NCBI GenBank assembly: GCA_903922175.1
Contig: CAIXSY010000192.1
Location: 1-40,421 of the forward strand
Direction: 5' to 3'
DNA from: an uncultured delta proteobacterium
GTDB taxonomy: Bacteria; Bdellovibrionota_C; UBA2361; CAIXSY01
DNA: 40,421 bases
The translations under genes and the position numbers were made by a program. Positions 9,174-40,421 of this stretch are shown here, one piece after another. Under the pieces are notes generated by a model. That model worked only from the letters and a program-made list of their open reading frames with translations, was not told where the DNA came from and searched no databases. How positions within the stretch are numbered: the stretch's first letter is position 1; each line of letters starts with the position of its first letter.

Positions 9174-9204
9174 CATCAAGTTAGTTGACGTTATGACAGC
9201 TAAC

Positions 9205-9355
9205 ATCTATTGCCTCATCAGGAGTTTCCTACCTCGCTCGGCCTTCCGCCTTCGCTCGGCCTTCCGCCATCGCTCGGCCTCGCGGCCGAAGCTATGGCGA
9301 GACAGGCTGCGGCCGAAAGCTGCAGCTGCATCAGATGCAGTCGTCAGAAAGCAGA
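9205..9355. repeat. R2 family repeat, copy a
   Basis: It starts TCTATTGCCTCATCAGGAG and matches the copy at 30666-30820. The match includes a long near-identical block around GAAGCTATGGCGAGACAGG and the palindrome-rich GCTGCAG...CATCAGATGCAGTC. Inside, an 18-bp unit (CGCTCGGCCTTCCGCC plus two bases) is tandemly repeated about two and a half times. A 20-base sequence near 9433-9452, just downstream, recurs in inverted orientation at 6812-6832. The element lies 3' of glnA. Confidence 0.7.
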
Positions 9356-9453
9356 CGGCAGAGCGCTGATATCAGATCACAGATGCAAAGCCTCGTGGAC
9401 GTGCAGGTGCTGGTGCAGGGTGCACGGGGCTTCCAGGGTTATTGAGCAGTTAC

Positions 9454-10953: not shown

Positions 10954-11133
10954 TAACTGCTCGCCCCTCATAGCAGAAAATCGGATAACGTTGACGTCTA
11001 ACGTCCAACGTCGGACGTAAAACGTCGACGTCTGACGTCCGGCGTTATACGTTTGTCGTCAGCGTCATCGTTCCTCAAAAATCTTCGTCTTACGCTGAGT
11101 ATTCCAATATTCATACAGAGGGCGTGAGTAGTT
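10954..11133. repeat. R1 family repeat, full copy (a)
   Basis: Imperfect terminal inverted repeats AACTGCTCGCCC and GGCGTGAGTAGTT enclose a core of tandem heptamers: TTGACGTC, TAACGTC, CAACGTC, GGACGTA, AAACGTC, a six-base GACGTC at the centre, TGACGTC, CGGCGTT, ATACGTT and TGTCGTC. The core folds back as a stem of about 40 bases. The right flank (CCTCAAAAATC...CTGAGTAT...ATATTCA) is shared with the copy at 18779-18970. It lies between two genes on the minus strand. Confidence 0.8.
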
Positions 11134-16929: not shown

Positions 16930-17096
16930 AACAGGTTGCTTCTGAGCGTACATTGGCGTGAAAGGTTCTTCCACCGAAGGTGGGCTAGGTCTACCCTTTT
17001 TGTGGAGTTATCAATAGCTGTAACATGGTGCAAAAAAGGGTAGACCTTCGTCTGCCCTCAATGCTCTTTCGCCTGAAAATCTCTAGCGGACGGCTG
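16930..17096 (+). repeat. R3 double-hairpin repeat, copy c
   Basis: It contains GAAGGTGGGCTAGG, the stem TCTACCCTTTT...AAAAGGGTAGA with a loop of about 33 bases (GTGGAGTTATCAATAGCTG...), then a second stem CGTCTGC...GCGGACG. The matches to 36849-37060 and 40191-40386 run through both stems. The GCGGACG end stops three bases before the stop codon of the metalloprotease gene. Confidence 0.75.
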
Positions 17097-18778: not shown

Positions 18779-18970
18779 AACTGCGCACTCCTCGTAACAG
18801 AAAACGAATGACGCTGACGGCTAACGTCCAACGCCGGGCTCCGGCGAGCACCGTCGAGTCGACGTCTGACGTCGACGTTTGACGTCCGGACGTCAGCGTC
18901 AGCGATCCTCAAAAATTGCCATTTTGTGCTGAGTATCTCCATATTCACACCGAGGAGGTGAGTAGTTCCG
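18779..18970. repeat. R1 family repeat, full copy (b)
   Basis: Ends AACTGCGCACTCC and GGAGGTGAGTAGTT are imperfect inverted repeats. The core has heptamers of the NNACGTC type with a rearranged left arm (CGCCGGGCTCCGGCG insert). The right flank matches copy a (GATCCTCAAAAATTG...GTGCTGAGTATC...ATATTCAC). It fills almost the whole space between the lipoprotein stop (18981) and the metalloprotease start (18775). Confidence 0.8.
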
Positions 18971-23036: not shown

Positions 23037-23288
23037 ATGAAGAAGTTATTCATCGCTCTTATTGGTATCATGCAGTTGCCCGTTCTGGCGCACGCCGATG
23101 TGCTCTGTGAGCAAAAAGGGCAGGTACAGCTTGTGCGCAAGGCTACTCAATGCCCACGTAAGTGGAGCAAGGTAGACCTCAATAGTCTGGTAGTGATCAA
23201 GGATGTGACGGGGCAGAAAGGCGACACGGGAGCCCAAGGGATACAGGGCATACAGGGGCTCAAGGTGTTGCTGGCCCTCAAGGGTTAA
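23037..23288 (+). CDS. collagen-like exported protein, N-terminal part (frame broken)
   Basis: Starts at ATG 23037 with GGAG seven bases upstream. A signal peptide (KKLFIALIGIMQLPVLAHA) is followed by a short cysteine-containing domain (LCEQKGQVQLVRKATQCPRKWSKVDL). The first Gly-X-Y triplets follow (GQKGDTGAQGIQGIQG). The frame then runs LKVLLALKG and stops. The Gly-X-Y frame continues one base back from about 23258, so a single missing base or a -1 slip separates the two halves. With the slip, the triplet phase is kept exactly (GIQ GAQ GVA GPQ GLK). It is read here as the 5' part of one gene that runs to 24199. Confidence 0.75.
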   Translation: MKKLFIALIGIMQLPVLAHADVLCEQKGQVQLVRKATQCPRKWSKVDLNSLVVIKDVTGQKGDTGAQGIQGIQGLKVLLALKG

Positions 23289-24199
23289 AAGGAGACAAGG
23301 GAGAGCAAGGCATTCAAGGACTCCCCGGCGCCCAGGGAGTTAAGGGTGAACAGGGCCTGCAGGGGCTAAAAGGTGATAGTGGCGCGCAGGGCATTCAGGG
23401 AGTCGCAGGTGCAAGGGGCGATAAAGGTGAGCCGGGGGTGCAGGGTCTTAAAGGAGACGCCGGTTCGCAGGGCATTCAGGGGATCGCTGGTGCCAAGGGC
23501 GACAAAGGTGAGCCGGGAGTGCAGGGTCTTAAAGGAGACGCCGGCGCACAGGGCATTCAAGGGATCGCTGGTGCTAAGGGCGACAAGGGTGAGCTGGGAC
23601 TGCAGGGTCTTAAAGGAGACACTGGAGCGCAGGGCATTCAAGGGATAGCTGGTGCTAAGGGCGATCAGGGTCTGCAAGGTCTAAAAGGCGACAGAGGTCT
23701 CCCAGGGCTTCAAGGTCTGCAGGGGGTGAAGGGTAACAAGGGGGATACCGGCGAGCCTGGTATTGCAGGGTTTTTTAACACTGCTGACTTCATCAATGGT
23801 CACGCCACAGTTAACGAATATAGGATCAATTATGTGAGCGGCGGATACTCTGAACAGACCCCCGTTGAGATCCCCTGTACGCCGAACTTCATTACCAAGA
23901 TTACCTGCAAGCGTGCGGGTGGATCGCTGCCCATGGCTAGAATTTGTAAGTACGGTGGCCAGAACAATCAGTGCGCTGAATCTCTTGTCAGCGTGACCTT
24001 CGGGCCGCAGATAGCATACGGATTCGACTCGTACTACACCCTCGATATTAGCCTGCACACGCCGATCTATGTGGCGCCTCCTGCTAACTGCGCAGCAAGC
24101 GGTGGTGTTTATAGCAGCACGTCAAACTTCCTCTCCATTGCAAATGATGCAGCGGCCACTCCGGAGTGTGAGCTGACGATCGTCTCAATCCAGCCGTAG
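23261..24199 (+). CDS. collagen-like exported protein, repeat region and C-terminal domain (second frame)
   Basis: The frame reads uninterrupted Gly-X-Y triplets from 23261 (QGVAGPQGLKGDKGEQG) to about 23760. It then reads a C-terminal domain of about 145 residues with four or more cysteines (IPCTPNFITKITCKRAG, RICKYGGQNNQC, PPANCAAS). It has no start or signal peptide of its own, so it is expressed only if joined to the 23037 frame. Triple-helix formation, trimerisation by the C-terminal domain and surface display are expected from similar bacterial collagen-like proteins. A strong hairpin terminator follows 25 bases after the stop. Confidence 0.75.
   Translation, partial: QGVAGPQGLKGDKGEQGIQGLPGAQGVKGEQGLQGLKGDSGAQGIQGVAGARGDKGEPGVQGLKGDAGSQGIQGIAGAKGDKGEPGVQGLKGDAGAQGIQGIAGAKGDKGELGLQGLKGDTGAQGIQGIAGAKGDQGLQGLKGDRGLPGLQGLQGVKGNKGDTGEPGIAGFFNTADFINGHATVNEYRINYVSGGYSEQTPVEIPCTPNFITKITCKRAGGSLPMARICKYGGQNNQCAESLVSVTFGPQIAYGFDSYYTLDISLHTPIYVAPPANCAASGGVYSSTSNFLSIANDAAATPECELTIVSIQP
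23345..23680 (+). repeat. 81-bp tandem repeats in the collagen-like gene
   Basis: A block of nine Gly-X-Y triplets recurs every 81 bases; for example GGTGAGCCGGG at about 23425 and 23506 and GGTGAGCTGGG at 23587. The first and last units are more diverged. The near-identity of the middle units suggests recent duplication, so copy number may vary between strains. Confidence 0.75.
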
Positions 24200-24450: not shown

Positions 24451-24524
24451 ATGAATAGTTCCCGATTCTAGTTCTATCACCCAGAGATAACAGTATTTAT
24501 TTTGCCCGCCTTGGTCGCATTGAC

Positions 24525-24720
24525 GCTTTGTGCTGGGGGTGCTACGAAGCACCGTAGGAGTTCAAGGGAAGAACGGTGAAATTCCGTCACGGGCCCGCCG
24601 CTGTAACCGGATAAAGCACTCCAAGCCACTGCGCGAAGAGCGCGGGAAGGCGTGCGTTATTGTCGTCATCCCCTAGCGGGGAAGAGGCAGTAATCTGGAA
24701 GTCAGAAGACCTACTCTGTA
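24525..24720 (+). promoter_or_regulatory. cobalamin (B12) riboswitch
   Basis: The leader contains the conserved blocks in order: GGGAAGAACGGTGAAATTCC, CACGGGCCCGCCGCTGTAACC (the core with the B12-box partner), AGCCACTG followed by GGGAAGGC, and TCAGAAGACC. This is the adenosylcobalamin aptamer. It lies about 170 bases upstream of btuB. Binding of B12 is expected to shut off btuB expression and possibly the genes after it. Confidence 0.93.
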
Positions 24721-24887
24721 TTTGAGGAAGAGTTCACTTCTTCGAATGCCCTATCTTGTATTTTATCGCAGGGATTGCTCTCGGGGAGAGGAGCTAATCT
24801 TGGGAAAGTTGATGCTGCTACGCTGTTGTGTTGCTGTTCGCTGACGTAAGCGTGGTTGATGTCCCCTGCCGTTCAAGTGGGCTTTAA

Positions 24888-26816
24888 ATGTATCATTTTA
24901 ACGTGCTGGTGCGCGCATCTGTCCTGTTGGTTAGTTTCGCCTATGGGGCTGGTGGTGCTTGGGCTGAAGATCCGACGGGGGCTTCTCCGGTGGAGATTGT
25001 GGTCACTCCGAACAGGACCGAGACCCCGCTGCGCGAGGTGGCGAGCTCGGTGAGCGTCATTACGGCGGCTGATATTAAGGAAAAAGGATCGAACTCGGTT
25101 GTTGACGTGCTGCACGATATTCCGGGGGTCGATGTGGTGCAAAGCGGCGGCCCGGGTGGAAACGCTGCAGTTTTTATTCGCGGTGCCAATGCCGATCATA
25201 CCCTCGTGCTGATCGATGGGATTGAGGCTAACAATCCGATCTCACCCAACCGAGCCTTTAATTTTGCTGACCTGAGCGTTGATGATATCGAGCGCATCGA
25301 AGTGCTGCGTGGTCCACAGAGCACGCTTTATGGCTCAGATGCTCTCGGCGGGGTGATCCAGATTATCACGAAGAAGGGAACCAAGAAGACGATCGTCGGC
25401 GCTTCGGCAGAAGCGGGTTCGTATGATTCCTACACCGAAACAGCGCATGCTTCGGGCGGCAACGATCTTCGTAACTTCTCTTTTTCAGCATCGCAGCGCA
25501 ACGTGCATAGCTTCTCGGCTGCAGACAAGCGTGATGGCAATAGCGAAGCCGATGCCTATGCCAATAGCTCCTTTGCGGGACGCGTTGGTGTGACGCCTGC
25601 AAAAGACCTCGAAGGGGCCCTTTTCCTGCGCTACAACGATGCTCACACGAACCTTGACAATAGCGCTGGCGCTGGCGGTGACGATCCGAACAGGCTGCTC
25701 AAGAATCAAGAGATCTTTACGCGCGGTGAAGTGCGTAACTCTTTCTTCGATGAAACACTGAAGCAGATCTGGTTTGGCGATTACACCGAGCATCGGCTCG
25801 ACGATGACAATGATCCCGATCCGGCACACCCGCTTGATAGTCAGCGTAGCCACTATAACGGAGGCTTGTTTAAGTACGGACTGGAAAATGCTCTCCGTCT
25901 AACCTCGTACCTATCCTTACTTGGTGGGGTGGAGAATGCGGTTGAGCGCGGCAGCTCTCTTTTGGATAGCGATAGTGCCTACGGCCCCTACACCGACCAG
26001 TTCTATGGCAAAAGTCAGCGTACGACGGGCTACTTTGGCCAGGCGAGCCTCTCGCTATGCGAGGCTTTTCACAGCACGTTCGGTGTGCGCTTGGATGATA
26101 ATTCGGCGTTTGGCACGCATGCCACTTGGCGTGTAGCACCCACGTACTATGTAAGTGATAGTGGCACTAAGTTTTCGGCGAGTGTCGGAACGGGATTTAA
26201 GGCACCGTCGTTGTATCAGCTCTATTCACCGTACGGCGACCCAACGCTGCTACCGGAAAAGAGCTTGGGGATTGATGCTGGTGTCAGTCAGTCGTTTCTG
26301 GGTGAGAGTGTTACGCTCGGTGTCACCTACTTCTGGAATAGGTTTGATAACCTGGTGACCTTTAACCCAGCTACATTCGTTCTTGAAAATAGTGGCGGGG
26401 CACATACACAAGGCATCGAAGCTTCGTCTGAGTATGAAATAAGTAAGGCCTGGCAGGCGCGCGGTACCTTTACGTACACCGATACCAGTGATGATGAAAC
26501 GGGACAATCGCTGCTTCGGCGTGCACGTCTGATGTCTTCGGCACGTCTAAGCTACAAAGAGGAGGAGCGTTGGGGGGCACATGCCGAGGTTCTTGCCGTG
26601 GGGAGCCGTCCCGATAACGACTACAACAGCTATCCGCCGACTCGTACCACGTTGGCAGGCTATGCTCTGCTCAATGTTGGGGCTTTTTATGGGTTGTCCA
26701 GGAATGTTGAGCTCTATGTTCGGGCGGAAAATCTGCTTGATAAAAAATATCAGGAGGTTCTTGGTTACGGCACGGCGGGAGCTACGGGGTATATTGGGGT
26801 GAAGGTGAGGATGTAG
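24888..26816 (+). CDS. btuB: TonB-dependent vitamin B12 outer-membrane receptor
   Basis: A 642-residue protein with a signal peptide ending AGGAWA. The TonB box region EIVVTPNRTETPLREV is at the mature N-terminus. Plug-domain motifs follow: VVDVLHDIPGVDVVQSGG, AAVFIRGANADHTLVLIDG and RIEVLRGPQSTLYGSDALGGVIQIIT. The 22-strand barrel comes next and ends in RAENLLDKKYQEVLGYGTAGATGYIGVKVRM, with the family's RxxNLxDKxY. A BtuB function is supported by the cobalamin riboswitch directly upstream and the btuFDC genes downstream. It imports cobalamin across the outer membrane with TonB energy. A hairpin begins right at its stop codon. Confidence 0.93.
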   Translation: MYHFNVLVRASVLLVSFAYGAGGAWAEDPTGASPVEIVVTPNRTETPLREVASSVSVITAADIKEKGSNSVVDVLHDIPGVDVVQSGGPGGNAAVFIRGANADHTLVLIDGIEANNPISPNRAFNFADLSVDDIERIEVLRGPQSTLYGSDALGGVIQIITKKGTKKTIVGASAEAGSYDSYTETAHASGGNDLRNFSFSASQRNVHSFSAADKRDGNSEADAYANSSFAGRVGVTPAKDLEGALFLRYNDAHTNLDNSAGAGGDDPNRLLKNQEIFTRGEVRNSFFDETLKQIWFGDYTEHRLDDDNDPDPAHPLDSQRSHYNGGLFKYGLENALRLTSYLSLLGGVENAVERGSSLLDSDSAYGPYTDQFYGKSQRTTGYFGQASLSLCEAFHSTFGVRLDDNSAFGTHATWRVAPTYYVSDSGTKFSASVGTGFKAPSLYQLYSPYGDPTLLPEKSLGIDAGVSQSFLGESVTLGVTYFWNRFDNLVTFNPATFVLENSGGAHTQGIEASSEYEISKAWQARGTFTYTDTSDDETGQSLLRRARLMSSARLSYKEEERWGAHAEVLAVGSRPDNDYNSYPPTRTTLAGYALLNVGAFYGLSRNVELYVRAENLLDKKYQEVLGYGTAGATGYIGVKVRM

Positions 26817-26944: not shown

Positions 26945-27106
26945 CGACGGAGGTCCCTCCTCTCCCCTTTTGGTGGAATCATCGGTAGCTTTGGCAAAGC
27001 ACGGGAAAAGGGGAGAGTTCGGGATGACATTAAAAAAAATGTCATCCCGAGCGCAAGTCACTAGTTGGAGTGTGCTTGACTCAACTGCTAGCGAGGACCT
27101 CCGTCG
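26945..27106 (+). repeat. 162-bp palindromic element between btuB and btuF, divergent R3 relative
   Basis: Perfect 12-base ends CGACGGAGGTCC and GGACCTCCGTCG bound the element. Inside is a 12-base perfect stem CTCTCCCCTTTT / AAAAGGGGAGAG with a 34-base loop, and a second stem GGGATGACATT / AATGTCATCCC. The first stem-loop aligns without gaps to the R3 hairpin (shared GTGG, TATC-like, GCT and GCA positions in the loop). It has a compensated stem pair (A-T in R3, C-G here). Confidence 0.7.
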
Positions 27107-27190: not shown

Positions 27191-28075
27191 ATGACGAAAG
27201 CATACCTCCCCTATTTAACCCTCTGCAGCGCATTGCTCCTCCTTTTACCTACGTTCGCCGCCAACGCCGACGTCGTCCCTGCCCCTACCTGCGCCCGTAT
27301 CGTGTCTTTGTCGCCGAGCGTAACCGAGACGCTGTACGTGCTTGGGCTTGGGGATTCGATCGTTGGCGTGACGCGCTATTGCCTGTACCCAGTGCAGGCT
27401 CAGGCAAAACCTAAGGTGGGAGGATTTCTTGATCCGAGTAATGAAACTATCGCCTCACTCACCCCATCGCTGGTGATTACCGTTCGCGAGCAGGAGGAGG
27501 AACGGCGCTTCCTGGAGACGCTTGGTATAAAAACATTGTCGGTTGAGCACAAAAGTATCAAGGGCATCCTCAACTCGATTGACGAGATCGCCTCTATCTG
27601 TGGCCGTGCAGAGGAGGGGCGTAGGCTGCGCGCAGATTTAGAGCAACGGGTAGAAGCCGTTCGTCAGCGGAGTGCAGGAAGGCCGCGTGTGCGGGTATTG
27701 GTCGCCGTGGGTGGTAATGAACAGGACGGTGAGCTCTCGCATCTGTTTGTCTCTGGCCGCGATGGCTACTACGACCAGATGCTCTCGATTGTCGGTGCGG
27801 ATAATGTTTATAGCGGCACGACCGCCAATCTGCCTTCGCTTTCTAAGGAGGGGCTGATTGTGCTTAATCCCGAGGTGGTGATTCAGATCGGCTCAGAGAG
27901 CGATGGGTTGCGGGTTGCCCCCGAGGCGATACTTCGAGCATGGTCTAAGCTGTCCATGATCAATGCCGTGAAAAACAAGCGAATTCATATATTTACACAG
28001 GACTTCGCCTCGATCCCAGGACCTCGCTTTGTGCTTCTCCTCGAAGAATTTGCTAGAGTTATACATCCAACCTAG
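27191..28075 (+). CDS. btuF: periplasmic B12-binding protein of the ABC importer
   Basis: A 294-residue protein with a Sec signal peptide (LLLLLPTFAANA). The mature start, ARIVSLSPSVTETLYVLGLGDSIVGVTRYCLYP, is the BtuF/FecB-type opening. VGGFLDPSNETIASLTPSLVI and ADNVYSG follow, as in class III binding proteins. It carries cobalamin from BtuB to the inner-membrane importer. GAGAAGG precedes the ATG. btuD begins 13 bases after its stop, so btuF, btuD and btuC form an operon. Separation from btuB by the palindromic element suggests that btuFDC may also have its own promoter. Confidence 0.9.
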   Translation: MTKAYLPYLTLCSALLLLLPTFAANADVVPAPTCARIVSLSPSVTETLYVLGLGDSIVGVTRYCLYPVQAQAKPKVGGFLDPSNETIASLTPSLVITVREQEEERRFLETLGIKTLSVEHKSIKGILNSIDEIASICGRAEEGRRLRADLEQRVEAVRQRSAGRPRVRVLVAVGGNEQDGELSHLFVSGRDGYYDQMLSIVGADNVYSGTTANLPSLSKEGLIVLNPEVVIQIGSESDGLRVAPEAILRAWSKLSMINAVKNKRIHIFTQDFASIPGPRFVLLLEEFARVIHPT

Positions 28076-30293: not shown

Positions 30294-30683
30294 ATGGAAA
30301 ATGACGAAATATCTAAACTGCACACGTACCAGTGGATGCAGAGCCGGATTCCTGCACTGGATGCGCTTACTGCTTTCGTGCCTGAGAAGTTGCTGCCGAT
30401 AAATTCTTCCATGAAGCAGACTTTGGACCAAATCAAAGGCGAATCACGATGGTATCCTGTTGAGGGGGGACACCGAGTTCTCATACGTGACTTTAATGAT
30501 CTCACCTACGATAGTGCCCTGTTCACGATTGAGAAAGGTGCCTGGGCTCATGAACACTGTGATATCTGTGACGAACGTATTCCACAGATGACTCTTTGCT
30601 ATGTCACAGGAGTTGATGAGCCTTATCATCTTCTATGCGTCAAGTGCTATGAAGAGAAGGTAATGTCTATTGCCTCATCATGA
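30294..30683 (+). CDS. small zinc-ribbon-like protein of unknown function
   Basis: A 129-residue protein. The N-terminal 85 residues have no recognised domain. The C-terminal part has HCDICDERIPQMTLCYVTGVDEPYHLLCVKCYEEKV, a CxxC...CxxC pair that should bind zinc. GATGAG lies before the ATG. The last residues (MSIASS) and the stop codon come from the beginning of the R2 repeat, so the original C-terminus may have been slightly different. Function unknown. Confidence 0.6.
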   Translation: MENDEISKLHTYQWMQSRIPALDALTAFVPEKLLPINSSMKQTLDQIKGESRWYPVEGGHRVLIRDFNDLTYDSALFTIEKGAWAHEHCDICDERIPQMTLCYVTGVDEPYHLLCVKCYEEKVMSIASS

Positions 30684-30820
30684 GTTTCCCCCTTCGCTCG
30701 GCCTTCCCACTTCGCCTGGCCTTGCGGCCAGTGCTTCGTGGGACAAGTGCGGCCGAAGCTATGGCGAGACAGGCTACGGCCGAAAGCTGCAGCGGCATCA
30801 GATGCAGTCAGCAGAAAACT
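30666..30820. repeat. R2 family repeat, copy b
   Basis: It starts TCTATTGCCTCATCATGAG and matches 9205-9355, with strong identity through GCGGCCGAAGCTATGG, GCGAGACAGGCT and GCAGCGGCATCAGATGC. It contains nested short palindromes (GGCCTTGCGGCC, GCTGCAGC, GCATCAGATGC). It overlaps the last codons of the small zinc-ribbon gene. The following 130 bases to 30953 contain no gene I can support. Confidence 0.7.
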
Positions 30821-30953
30821 GACTTCGGATCGCTCCCGTCTCGGCTCTCACCGATCCGAGGTATGGAGGTTGGTGAAACACCTTGCGGCGAGAGACGGAG
30901 AGAGCCGATTAAAGATAAACGCTCGTCGGTCTGAAATATCGCCTCGCTAGCCC

Positions 30954-32455: not shown

Positions 32456-32605
32456 AACTAGTCAGCACTTTTAGTGAAGGCGCAGGGAAAATTCGATGAC
32501 GTTGACGTCTAATGTCTTACGCCGGACGTCCTACGTCGACGCAAGACGTCCGGCGTTAGTCGTTTGACGTCGGCATCATCGATCTTTTAGTTAAATAGTT
32601 CCCTA
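32456..32605. repeat. R1 family repeat, long copy (c)
   Basis: The core runs TTGACGTC, TAATGTC, TTACGCC, GGACGTC, CTACGTC, GACGC, AAGACGTC, CGGCGTT, AGTCGTT, TGACGTC. Its two arms (from GATGACG to GCATCATC) pair over about 40 bases with few mismatches. The outer ends are diverged from copies a and b. It lies between 31707-32447 and the O-antigen ligase gene. Confidence 0.75.
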
Positions 32606-34251: not shown

Positions 34252-34370
34252 GTAACTATGCGCCCTCATCGACTAACGCTGACGTCAAACGTCTAGCGCC
34301 GGACGTAAAGCGTCGAGGTCAGACGTCCGGCGTTAGACGTCAGCGTTATACGATCCTCGCACTACTCCTA
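34252..34370. repeat. R1 family repeat, long copy (d)
   Basis: Core heptamers TGACGTC, AAACGTC, TAGCGCC, GGACGTA, AAGCGTC, GAGGTC, AGACGTC, CGGCGTT, AGACGTC. The arms TAACGCTGACGTC...GCGCCGGACGT and ACGTCCGGCGTTAGACG...CAGCGTTA pair almost perfectly except for one extra heptamer (AAACGTC) in the left arm. Ends are GTAACTATGCGCCC and CGCACTACTC. Confidence 0.8.
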
Positions 34371-36848: not shown

Positions 36849-37060
36849 CACCCTATGTCTTCCTTATGCCAGGCTGCTTCCGAGGGTACTTGGCTCTGCA
36901 TGTCAGCACGGTGTCTGCGCTGGTGGTTCTCGCACCGAAGGTGGGCTAGGTCTACCCTTTTTGTGGCGTTATCAACGGCTGCAGCATGGTGCAAGAAAAG
37001 GGTAGACCTCCGTCCGCCATCAATGCGCTTTTTGCGTCACAACTTTGTGCGGACGGTATA
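36849..37060 (+). repeat. R3 double-hairpin repeat, copy a
   Basis: The 5' part (CACCCT...TTCCTTATGC...GCTGCTTCC...TTGGCT) matches the copy at 40191-40386. Then comes the stem AGGTCTACCCTTTT / AAAAGGGTAGACCT with a 34-base loop (36962-36995). The second stem, GTCCGC...GCGGAC, follows. The last 24 bases overlap the 3' end of the GT39 gene and encode its final residues TVRTKL. Confidence 0.8.
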
Positions 37061-38875
37061 CCCAAACACTGTCCGCAAAAAGTAGCGTCCGGCGGGACGC
37101 CCATTGCGCTGCGAGCGAAACTCATAGACTTCGCCAAGTCTCGTAAAACTTGAGGCTATCTCGGGAACCTCAAGGTCGCTACGGCTACGGGCTACGAGGA
37201 GCGCGTCTTTTCCTTTGAGGTTGCCGCTGGGGAGCCAATCGTTAAACATCAGACTATCTAGGCCAATGAGGTTTCGCCCTGCTACTTCTGGTGCGGCGCT
37301 GTGGTGGGCGATGGCCGCAAGGCGTGTGTAAAAGCTAAGTTCCGCCGCTGTAAAATGTTTGTCCATGCCGACGATGAGCGGAAGTTTGCCCGTGGCGTTG
37401 CGTATGCTCAGCGCCACATTAAAAGAGTGTTCCCCAAGATTACGCCAGCCGATGAGGCGTCCGACCTTGGATGAGTACGGTACTCCGGGATACCCAAGCG
37501 CTGGATAGTAGATTACAGCGCCAAATCCGATAAGAGATGCGGGGATCATCACCAGCCAGCTTTTGTACAGATAGCGCTCGGTGTCGGTCTGAGCAGGGCC
37601 TATGCCCAGTGCAAGATGTCGAGCCATGAGGGGGAGTGCCGCCAAAAATGCCGGCCCGGCCCAGATGATCTTCGTTCCATGGCTAAGGCTAAAAAGTAGA
37701 AACACCGCTAGCGGGACAAAAAACAGCGCAGCACAAAACCGACGTGTCGCTGCTGAGACGAGGACCTCTCGCGTCGACCGCCAGTAAAGCCAACTCGCAG
37801 CCGCAATCCCGGTAGGTGTGGTCAGGACCAAGAGATGAAGCAGGTAGGAGGGCAGCCCAAAGGTAGCCACGGCATTGAGACGCCTGCTTCCTTGAAAAGC
37901 GAACGATGCCCATTGGTGGGTGGCGTTCCAGTAAATTACGGGAGAAAAAACGGCGAGGGCGACCACGACGGCGAGGTATGGCTGGGGGCGCAAAAAGTAA
38001 CGCCGCAGCGGCGGATGCCACACAAAGACAAAGAGACTAGATAGCCCGACAAGAGCGATGGTGTATTTGGAGAGCATGCCGAGACCAAGGCAGAGTCCTA
38101 AGCCGAGCCACTCTTTCCAGCAGGCCTGCTCTAGGTTCTCGCATTTTCTAATGAGGCGCAGTAAAAAGTACAAGCTTGCCGCCCACCAGGTTACCAGCGG
38201 AGCATCCGGGGTAATCGCCGTTCCAATGCCGAAGAAATAGGGCACACTTGCGAATATGGCAGCGCCGAGCCAAGCCGTGCGACGATCGAAGGCCACGTTG
38301 ACGAGCTGAAATGCAAAAAATAGAGAACCCAAGGAGCAGATCCAGGCGGGGAAGCGTACGCTAAACTCTGAGTTGCCCAGCAGCTTGACGCTGGCGGCGA
38401 TGAGCCAGGCTGAGAGTGGAGGATGATCGAGGTAGCCGAGGGCGAGATGCTGGGCATAGTTCCAGTAGTAGGCCTCTTCGGGGATAAGCTCAGGGAGGCC
38501 AATGAGGAGCAATCGTAGGAGCACGCTATAGGCAACGATGAGCTGCGCTGCCCTCGGGGTAACACCAGAACTTATCCTGCTCTGCCACGCTCGGCGCCAG
38601 ATCTCACTGAGCACTACCGCAAAGATGAAACACAGCCATGCTGGTAAGCCAAGGCGAACGAAGAGTACACCAAAAAATGCACCACGAAGCACAAGGTTAA
38701 GCAGGAGCGAGCAGAGAGCGGGCCAGATCGAATCCGGCTTAATGCTCGATGACCCTCGCCTGTCGAGTGTTAGCATTAGTGTCGATGCAACGAGGGCTAG
38801 TAGTTGACTGTCTTCAGGTCTGAGCTTTATCCAGCTCAAGCCAAAGCAGATGATGAGGTCCAGTGCTATGAGCAT
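37037..38875 (-). CDS. GT39/ArnT-like glycosyltransferase with extra N-terminal membrane domain
   Basis: A 612-residue membrane protein. Residues 1-100 form about four membrane segments resembling a GtrA-like domain. From about 105 starts the GT-C fold with the family signature PEEAYYWNYAQHLALGYLDHPPLSAWLI (EEAYYW 133-138; DHPP 150-153). TAITPDAPLVTWW (the second acidic motif) and further membrane segments follow. It transfers a sugar from a polyprenyl-phosphate donor to a surface acceptor in the periplasm. The C-terminal residues 440-600 form the soluble domain. Its ATG lies one base after the stop of the GT9 gene, so both are cotranscribed. The last six codons lie inside an R3 repeat. Confidence 0.88.
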   Translation of the reverse strand: MLIALDLIICFGLSWIKLRPEDSQLLALVASTLMLTLDRRGSSSIKPDSIWPALCSLLLNLVLRGAFFGVLFVRLGLPAWLCFIFAVVLSEIWRRAWQSRISSGVTPRAAQLIVAYSVLLRLLLIGLPELIPEEAYYWNYAQHLALGYLDHPPLSAWLIAASVKLLGNSEFSVRFPAWICSLGSLFFAFQLVNVAFDRRTAWLGAAIFASVPYFFGIGTAITPDAPLVTWWAASLYFLLRLIRKCENLEQACWKEWLGLGLCLGLGMLSKYTIALVGLSSLFVFVWHPPLRRYFLRPQPYLAVVVALAVFSPVIYWNATHQWASFAFQGSRRLNAVATFGLPSYLLHLLVLTTPTGIAAASWLYWRSTREVLVSAATRRFCAALFFVPLAVFLLFSLSHGTKIIWAGPAFLAALPLMARHLALGIGPAQTDTERYLYKSWLVMIPASLIGFGAVIYYPALGYPGVPYSSKVGRLIGWRNLGEHSFNVALSIRNATGKLPLIVGMDKHFTAAELSFYTRLAAIAHHSAAPEVAGRNLIGLDSLMFNDWLPSGNLKGKDALLVARSRSDLEVPEIASSFTRLGEVYEFRSQRNGRPAGRYFLRTVFGYTVRTKL

Positions 38876-40190: not shown

Positions 40191-40386
40191 TATACCGTCC
40201 GCAAAAAGTCTTGGCGTAAAAAACGCATTGATGGCGGACGGAGGTCTACCCTTTTCTTGCACCATGCCACAGCTGTTGATAACGCCACAAAAAGGGTAGA
40301 CCGAGAACCTTTCGCTCTATTGCCGTGCAGACAAGCAAAGCCAAAAACTCTCTGGAAGCAGCATAGCATAAGGAAAAAGATGGGTG
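40191..40386 (-). repeat. R3 double-hairpin repeat, copy d (inverted)
   Basis: Read on the minus strand it matches copy a from CACCCA...TTCCTTATGC through the hairpin TCTACCCTTTT...AAAAGGGTAGA to GCGGACGGTATA. A block of about 16 bases before the stem, present in copies a and c (CACCGAAGGTGGGCTA), is missing. Together with copy a it encloses the GT39-GT9 pair as inverted repeats about 3.1 kb apart. Confidence 0.8.
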
Positions 40387-40421
40387 TATCTAACCTGTTG
40401 ATTTCATGTAATAAAATGCGA

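Follow-up and report, generated by a model that had tools for sequence, protein, structure and literature searches.

What is the double hairpin that recurs in the window, the whole stretch of 40,421 bases analysed here? The initial annotation flagged it at 36849-37060, with copies at 16930 and 40191 and a distant relative at 26945, and proposed that pairing conserved despite sequence change reflects selection on structure, as in a functional RNA or a transposition substrate. In this study, we focused on what these copies are, on how their stems stay paired and on where the same hairpin occurs in other genomes.

Results

The hairpins of the window

The shared stem TCTACCCTTTT / AAAAGGGTAGA was found exactly at 16990, 36951 and 40245, with loops of 33 or 34 bases; about 1e-7 chance matches to the exact TCTA hairpin are expected in 40,421 bases. 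The TCTCCCC/GGGGAGA version of the stem ascribed to the distant relative is present at 26961 with a loop of 34 bases, and the second stem, GTCCGC/GCGGAC, was also found, its T-G wobble belonging to the 16930 copy. The loops had been said to align without gaps to that of the 26945 copy. This holds clearly for the loop of the 40191 copy (20 of 34 positions identical, equalled by 4 of 20,000 shuffles) and less strongly for that of the 36849 copy (17 of 34, equalled by 62 of 20,000). All six folded stretches, four from the window and two from elsewhere in its genome, were more stable than shuffled sequences (z -3.5 to -6.7). The span 36849-37060 does hold the double hairpin but is not that alone: it reads as the right end of a transposon. 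Position 36849 is the exact onset of a match to an upstream stretch, to which the first ~95 bases belong. The features are as follows.

36849-36947, forward strand: what is left of the sequence ahead of an IS630-family transposase gene, with GGTTCTCGCACCGAAGGTGGGCTA at its end (matches the shared leader at 80%)
36951-37006, forward strand: core hairpin TCTACCCTTTT / AAAAGGGTAGA, loop 34 (exact match, fold, model and pattern searches)
37010-37056, forward strand: terminal hairpin CCGTCCGC / GCGGACGG, right end of the element (read from the sequence; 28 copies counted)
37057-37060, forward strand: TATA, end of the terminal inverted repeat with its TA target site (TA on both sides in 10 of 10 complete elements)
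40191-40421, reverse strand: second IS630-family right end, cut by the contig end
40245-40300, reverse strand: core hairpin TCTACCCTTTT / AAAAGGGTAGA of this second end, loop 34 (exact match)
16930-17093, forward strand: third right end, more diverged, without a clear TATA
16990-17044, forward strand: core hairpin TCTACCCTTTT / AAAAGGGTAGA of this third end, loop 33 (exact match)
17049-17093, forward strand: terminal hairpin of the 16930 copy, with one T-G pair
26945-27106, forward strand: different composite repeat with outer inverted repeat CGACGGAGGTCC / GGACCTCCGTCG (26945-26956, 27095-27106; read from the sequence)
26961-27016, forward strand: core hairpin of the TCTCCCCTTTT / AAAAGGGGAGA type, loop 34 (exact match and alignment with other variants)
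27020-27049, forward strand: inner hairpin CGGGATGACATT / AATGTCATCCCG of the composite repeat (read from the sequence; fold)

The window copies are intergenic or overlap just the final bases of a gene. A mannosyltransferase-like gene (37037-38875, reverse strand) has its last codons and stop inside the transposon end (37037-37060). The 26945 composite repeat has 26 matches in the genome, 10 of them of at least 80 bases; it sits between a TonB-dependent receptor gene (24888-26816), preceded by a cobalamin riboswitch (24518-24732), and a periplasmic binding protein gene (27191-28075). The same right-flank sequence, GTACACGTTTCAAG(G/A)GTCAAGGAA, follows the 40191 copy (locus L016) and the element ends of loci L009 and L039, which suggests that the element lies within another repeat. 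Other repeats of the window are a GACGT-rich dispersed inverted repeat (10976-11073, 32487-32584, 34264-34361, 18801-18837 and 2250-2314), a duplicated pair that is 83-88% alike (9198-9367 and 30658-30834) and a diverged tandem repeat with a unit of 81 bases (23262-23671).

In the whole genome of the window (4.8 Mb, 432 contigs), BLAST matched the 116-base double hairpin at at least 40 places. A covariance model built from 30 sequences gave 145 rows with both strands counted and 91 matches with stricter filters, and exact hairpins numbered 66 in the TCTA form and 7 in the CTCTCCCC form. Where the initial annotation listed four copies, the search for more members thus found about 90 in this genome, together with relatives in eight other genomes.

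Transposase remnants and TA target sites

In many copies, the hairpin is preceded by the same stretch of up to ~280 bases. Traced outwards, this leader enters the start of a DDE_3 transposase gene on the reverse strand (locus L061 and others). The transposase fragment of L061 (1011-1487, reverse strand; DDE_3 match at 5e-22) lies between both ends of the element, and many further loci have its first residues upstream of the hairpin. The outer end of the element is GCGGACGGTATA, and the terminal inverted repeat TACCGTCCGCAAAAAGTCTTG, searched for with up to three substitutions, is present at both ends. Ten elements of the genome have both ends, with sizes of 132, 172, 183, 183, 183, 197, 197, 207, 851 and 870 bp; TA stands on both sides of all ten, and the core hairpin is present in eight and absent from two. 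A TA target site on both sides is a feature of the IS630 family, by which we mean here the Tc1/mariner-type elements with a DDE_3 transposase and a TA target. All six DDE_3 loci of the genome hold fragments only, and none is an intact transposase gene with these ends.

Because the leader runs into a transposase gene and TA is found on both sides, the copies at 16930, 36849 and 40191 are read as IS630-family right ends. The suggestion of a transposition substrate is therefore upheld, since the terminal inverted repeat of this family, TA target sites and transposase remnants are all present in the copies. We consider it probable that a single IS630-family insertion sequence and miniature elements derived from it left the three copies as decayed right ends, and that the hairpin is a separate passenger module nested in them, with arms kept complementary at the DNA level.

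A nested, exchangeable module

The hairpin of ~60 bases is a module of its own, nested at the tip of a G+C-rich hairpin or replacing it. Just inside the element end lies the G+C-rich stem AGNAGCGCGC, whose loop is a few bases, the core hairpin or another insert; some other copies have the core instead of this stem. One base pair of the subterminal stem (pair N) is G-C in 10 rows, A-T in 8, C-G in 6 and A-G in 1, counted in 25 of 27 rows after two with scores under 6 were left out. On a tree of 45 flanking sequences, itself weak (7 of 42 inner branches starred), the state of the hairpin changes 24 times, against a mean of 23.0 for shuffled states, and 161 of 200 shuffles were as low. The core was also seen at a left end (L038), inside CATCCCGAGGAGC palindromes (L022, L165) and in a repeat with CTGTCCG ends (L172, L146), and the 26945 composite repeat holds a hairpin of the same kind within another small repeat.

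Stem covariation

The compensated changes that the initial annotation reported are real. Across 27 variants, 5 of 11 stem pairs are changed on both sides (14 cells; none of 500 shuffles as high), and the compensated pairs exceed both shuffled and slid controls. Together with the stable folds and a core loop that, by alignment, is conserved between variants and partly in the related genome G007 (GTGGAGYTACCAA), this is what a functional RNA or RNA element with a selected fold would offer in its favor. An RNA fold selected on one strand is expected to favor G-U pairs. However, one-sided changes number 0 in the 27-variant set against 14 two-sided ones, leaving no G-U steps, and G-T mismatches are not commoner than A-C: 71 cores have 2 G-T, 3 A-C and 8 other mismatches in 781 cells, a set restricted to cores that have at least 8 Watson-Crick pairs and no more than 2 substitutions in either arm, and 28 terminal stems have 4 G-T, 4 A-C and 2 others in 224 cells. 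The lack of one-sided changes and of a G-T excess over A-C fits a palindrome kept perfect in DNA. In addition, no Rfam model matched over the window hairpins, nor the hairpin in 18 further loci apart from RNase P RNA matches that enclose two of the hairpins, nor the leader in L060, L062 and L064. The copies are worn, truncated transposon ends among which the hairpin is swapped freely.

Selection for a structured, functional RNA thus found no support in the window's genome, where one-sided G-U changes are lacking, G-T does not exceed A-C and the hairpin state is shuffled among flanks; we regard an RNA whose fold is selected here as very unlikely. The stem covariation is better explained by palindromic DNA change than by a working RNA, although the mismatch counts are small and a weak RNA role is possible. 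A-G at stem pair 4 in 3 of 71 cores indicates that at least some of the changes were stepwise.

Relatives in other genomes

The exact TCTA form was found on only 4 contigs of a collection of 84,980 species, a count that may omit the records of the window's own genome. Three are from Oligoflexia bacterium SSF28, which NCBI places in Bdellovibrionota, and one is from Deltaproteobacteria bacterium SJ526, both genomes of the window's class (G007 and G043 of the class set). Relatives were searched in 57 genomes by the model (45 of them of the class) and in the 45 class genomes by two pattern searches; together these gave 16 places, in eight genomes of the class besides the window's own, one of the 16 being unread (G007:C80:34931). 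As far as these searches go, the module appears to be restricted to one class of bacteria. Neither of the two patterns was found in viral_contigs, and a phage origin was rejected on these scans. An uptake signal was also rejected, single arms TCTACCCTTTTT being scarce in the other class genomes (0-4 per strand).

Five of the 16 places begin directly 3' of a tRNA or tmRNA gene. RNase P RNA encloses two others, in a different helix in each of two genomes: P3, which is the first hairpin of the model, and P12, the hairpin at model positions 127-150. Reading of tRNA trailers added hairpins next to tRNA-Thr in G015 and to tRNA-Arg in G000, the latter with a damaged right arm; in all, hairpins follow tRNA genes in 3 of 43 trailers of G007, 1 of 37 of G000 (the damaged one) and 2 of 15 of G015, where the trailers read are a subset of the listed tRNAs and part of the loci were fetched because of the hairpin. 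The inner arms differ between places yet pair with their own partners, scoring 82 against a mean of 59.6 for swapped arms (best of 5000, 77). This test covered 13 hairpins from searches that had not required inner-arm pairing, with L216 (no pattern match), L120 and L128 left out.

Two further observations were made in these genomes. A second hairpin type, TTCGACTCGG..., directly follows the CCA end of tRNA-Thr (ggt) in G000 (L210), tRNA-Ser (gct) in G015 (L131) and tRNA-Thr (ggt) in G007 (L140), and its loop CTCGCTCATGGC is common to the three genomes. On contig 67 of G007, hairpins with the loop motif GTGGAGYTACCAA, as in the window, flank one gene (L120, 1501-1561 and 2413-2473), and one of them stops ~18 bases ahead of its start codon. 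The hairpins of L120 and L128 on this contig were considered as element ends and rejected, since the frame between them looks, from its translation, like a von Willebrand A-type gene.

Discussion

IS630-family insertion sequences and their MITEs share with the window copies a DDE_3 fragment, terminal inverted repeats, TA on both sides and internal-deletion derivatives of 132-207 bp. The copies found here differ in that all are decayed and that their subterminal hairpins hold an interchangeable nested palindrome of ~60 bases. Most likely, an IS630 transposase acting on the terminal repeats would have spread the copies into TA sites, and internal deletion would have produced the miniature copies of 132-207 bp. 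The core hairpin may have travelled as a passenger exchanged between ends. The conserved core loop counts against the module as a mere passenger, since a passenger need not be conserved. Its arms would stay complementary if both arms of the DNA palindrome are rewritten together, by template switching in replication or by exchange between copies. Template-switch mutations in hairpins are predicted (PMC8794818) to change both sides of a stem perfectly in one step. Such two-sided changes are what we observed, and template switching, which is a mutation mechanism and not a family of elements, is a candidate here. The first entry of the module into the transposon ends, the flanks of tRNA genes and RNase P RNA may have depended on a palindromic mobility of its own, or on the capture of an old 3'-end element of stable RNA genes.

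It is possible, though less than probable, that the module is a palindromic element with mobility of its own, similar to the Rickettsia palindromic elements (RPE), that hairpin tips, the 3' ends of tRNA and tmRNA genes and RNase P RNA are its insertion sites, and that it invaded IS630 ends, which then multiplied it. As this concerns the origin of the module, it is compatible with the IS630-end explanation. The unrelated contexts in the window's genome and in eight others of the class, the location inside two different RNase P helices in two genomes, the occurrence of the same surroundings with and without the core and the palindromic flanks at junctions all point to such mobility. However, the element lacks an autonomous partner, few single arms occur at long distance, and the apparent gain of a hairpin could be its loss by palindrome deletion.

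RPE insert in frame in protein-coding genes and also in RNA genes such as that of RNase P. As in the present case, they are palindrome families dispersed in a genome (PMC10969869). The hairpin studied here belongs to another phylum, its window copies were not seen inserted in reading frames, and its outer arms are fixed while the inner arms are variable. The exact TCTA pattern, a query of this repeat and not of RPE sequences, was found in none of the Rickettsia contigs of the 84,980-species collection.

The tRNA-adjacent places also suit another origin, in which an old 3'-end element (a terminator, insulator or processing trailer) of the tRNA and stable RNA genes of the class was later captured and multiplied by transposon ends. 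The five places that start at a tRNA or tmRNA 3' end, the hairpins in the trailers of G007, G000 and G015, and the inner arms that vary but pair are all in line with it. Yet most tRNA genes are without a hairpin, the module also lies inside RNase P RNA, where the transcript cannot end, and its T run is within the stem, unlike that of an intrinsic terminator. We consider this origin unlikely.

Mobilisation of a REP by a Y1 (RAYT) transposase, or retroposition of an RNA by reverse transcriptase, would be an extremely unlikely origin of the module. GTAG/GGAG is present in the stem, the staggered 5' ends of the flanking sequence resemble truncation, and 37 of the 45 class genomes have Y1 genes. 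The tagged REPs, with GTAG or CGTC at the foot, are likewise short palindromes at many intergenic places, but PMC3733652 gives them 20-40 bp and an unpaired tag; the hairpins here have ~56-62 bases, their GTAG/GGAG is paired inside the stem, and no Y1 gene is linked to them. In G007, the only genome compared, none of the six contigs with a Y1 match carries a listed hairpin, and RAYT was rejected as the Y1 matches lie on contigs other than the hairpins. Retroposition, which the staggered 5' ends had raised, was rejected because RVT_1 is absent from the window's genome, whereas an identical search of 14 control genomes detected it in 3.

No description of this repeat was found in literature searches on palindromic elements and RNase P, IS630-type MITEs and Bdellovibrionota inverted repeats, which were judged by titles and the starts of abstracts and covered few subscription journals. 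It is possible, though not probable, that a class-specific palindrome, whose outer arms are fixed and whose inner arms change freely yet always pair, has colonised tRNA and tmRNA ends, two RNase P helices and transposon hairpin tips and been amplified by IS630 carriage.

These results call for caution in reading RNA selection from compensated changes in repeated hairpins, which in this case were found in worn transposon ends. The palindrome itself, seen in one bacterial class only as far as searched, can pass as a whole from one mobile repeat to another, and it is found against tRNA, tmRNA and RNase P genes. Should it prove to be mobile by itself, it would be a further case of palindromes colonising RNA genes.
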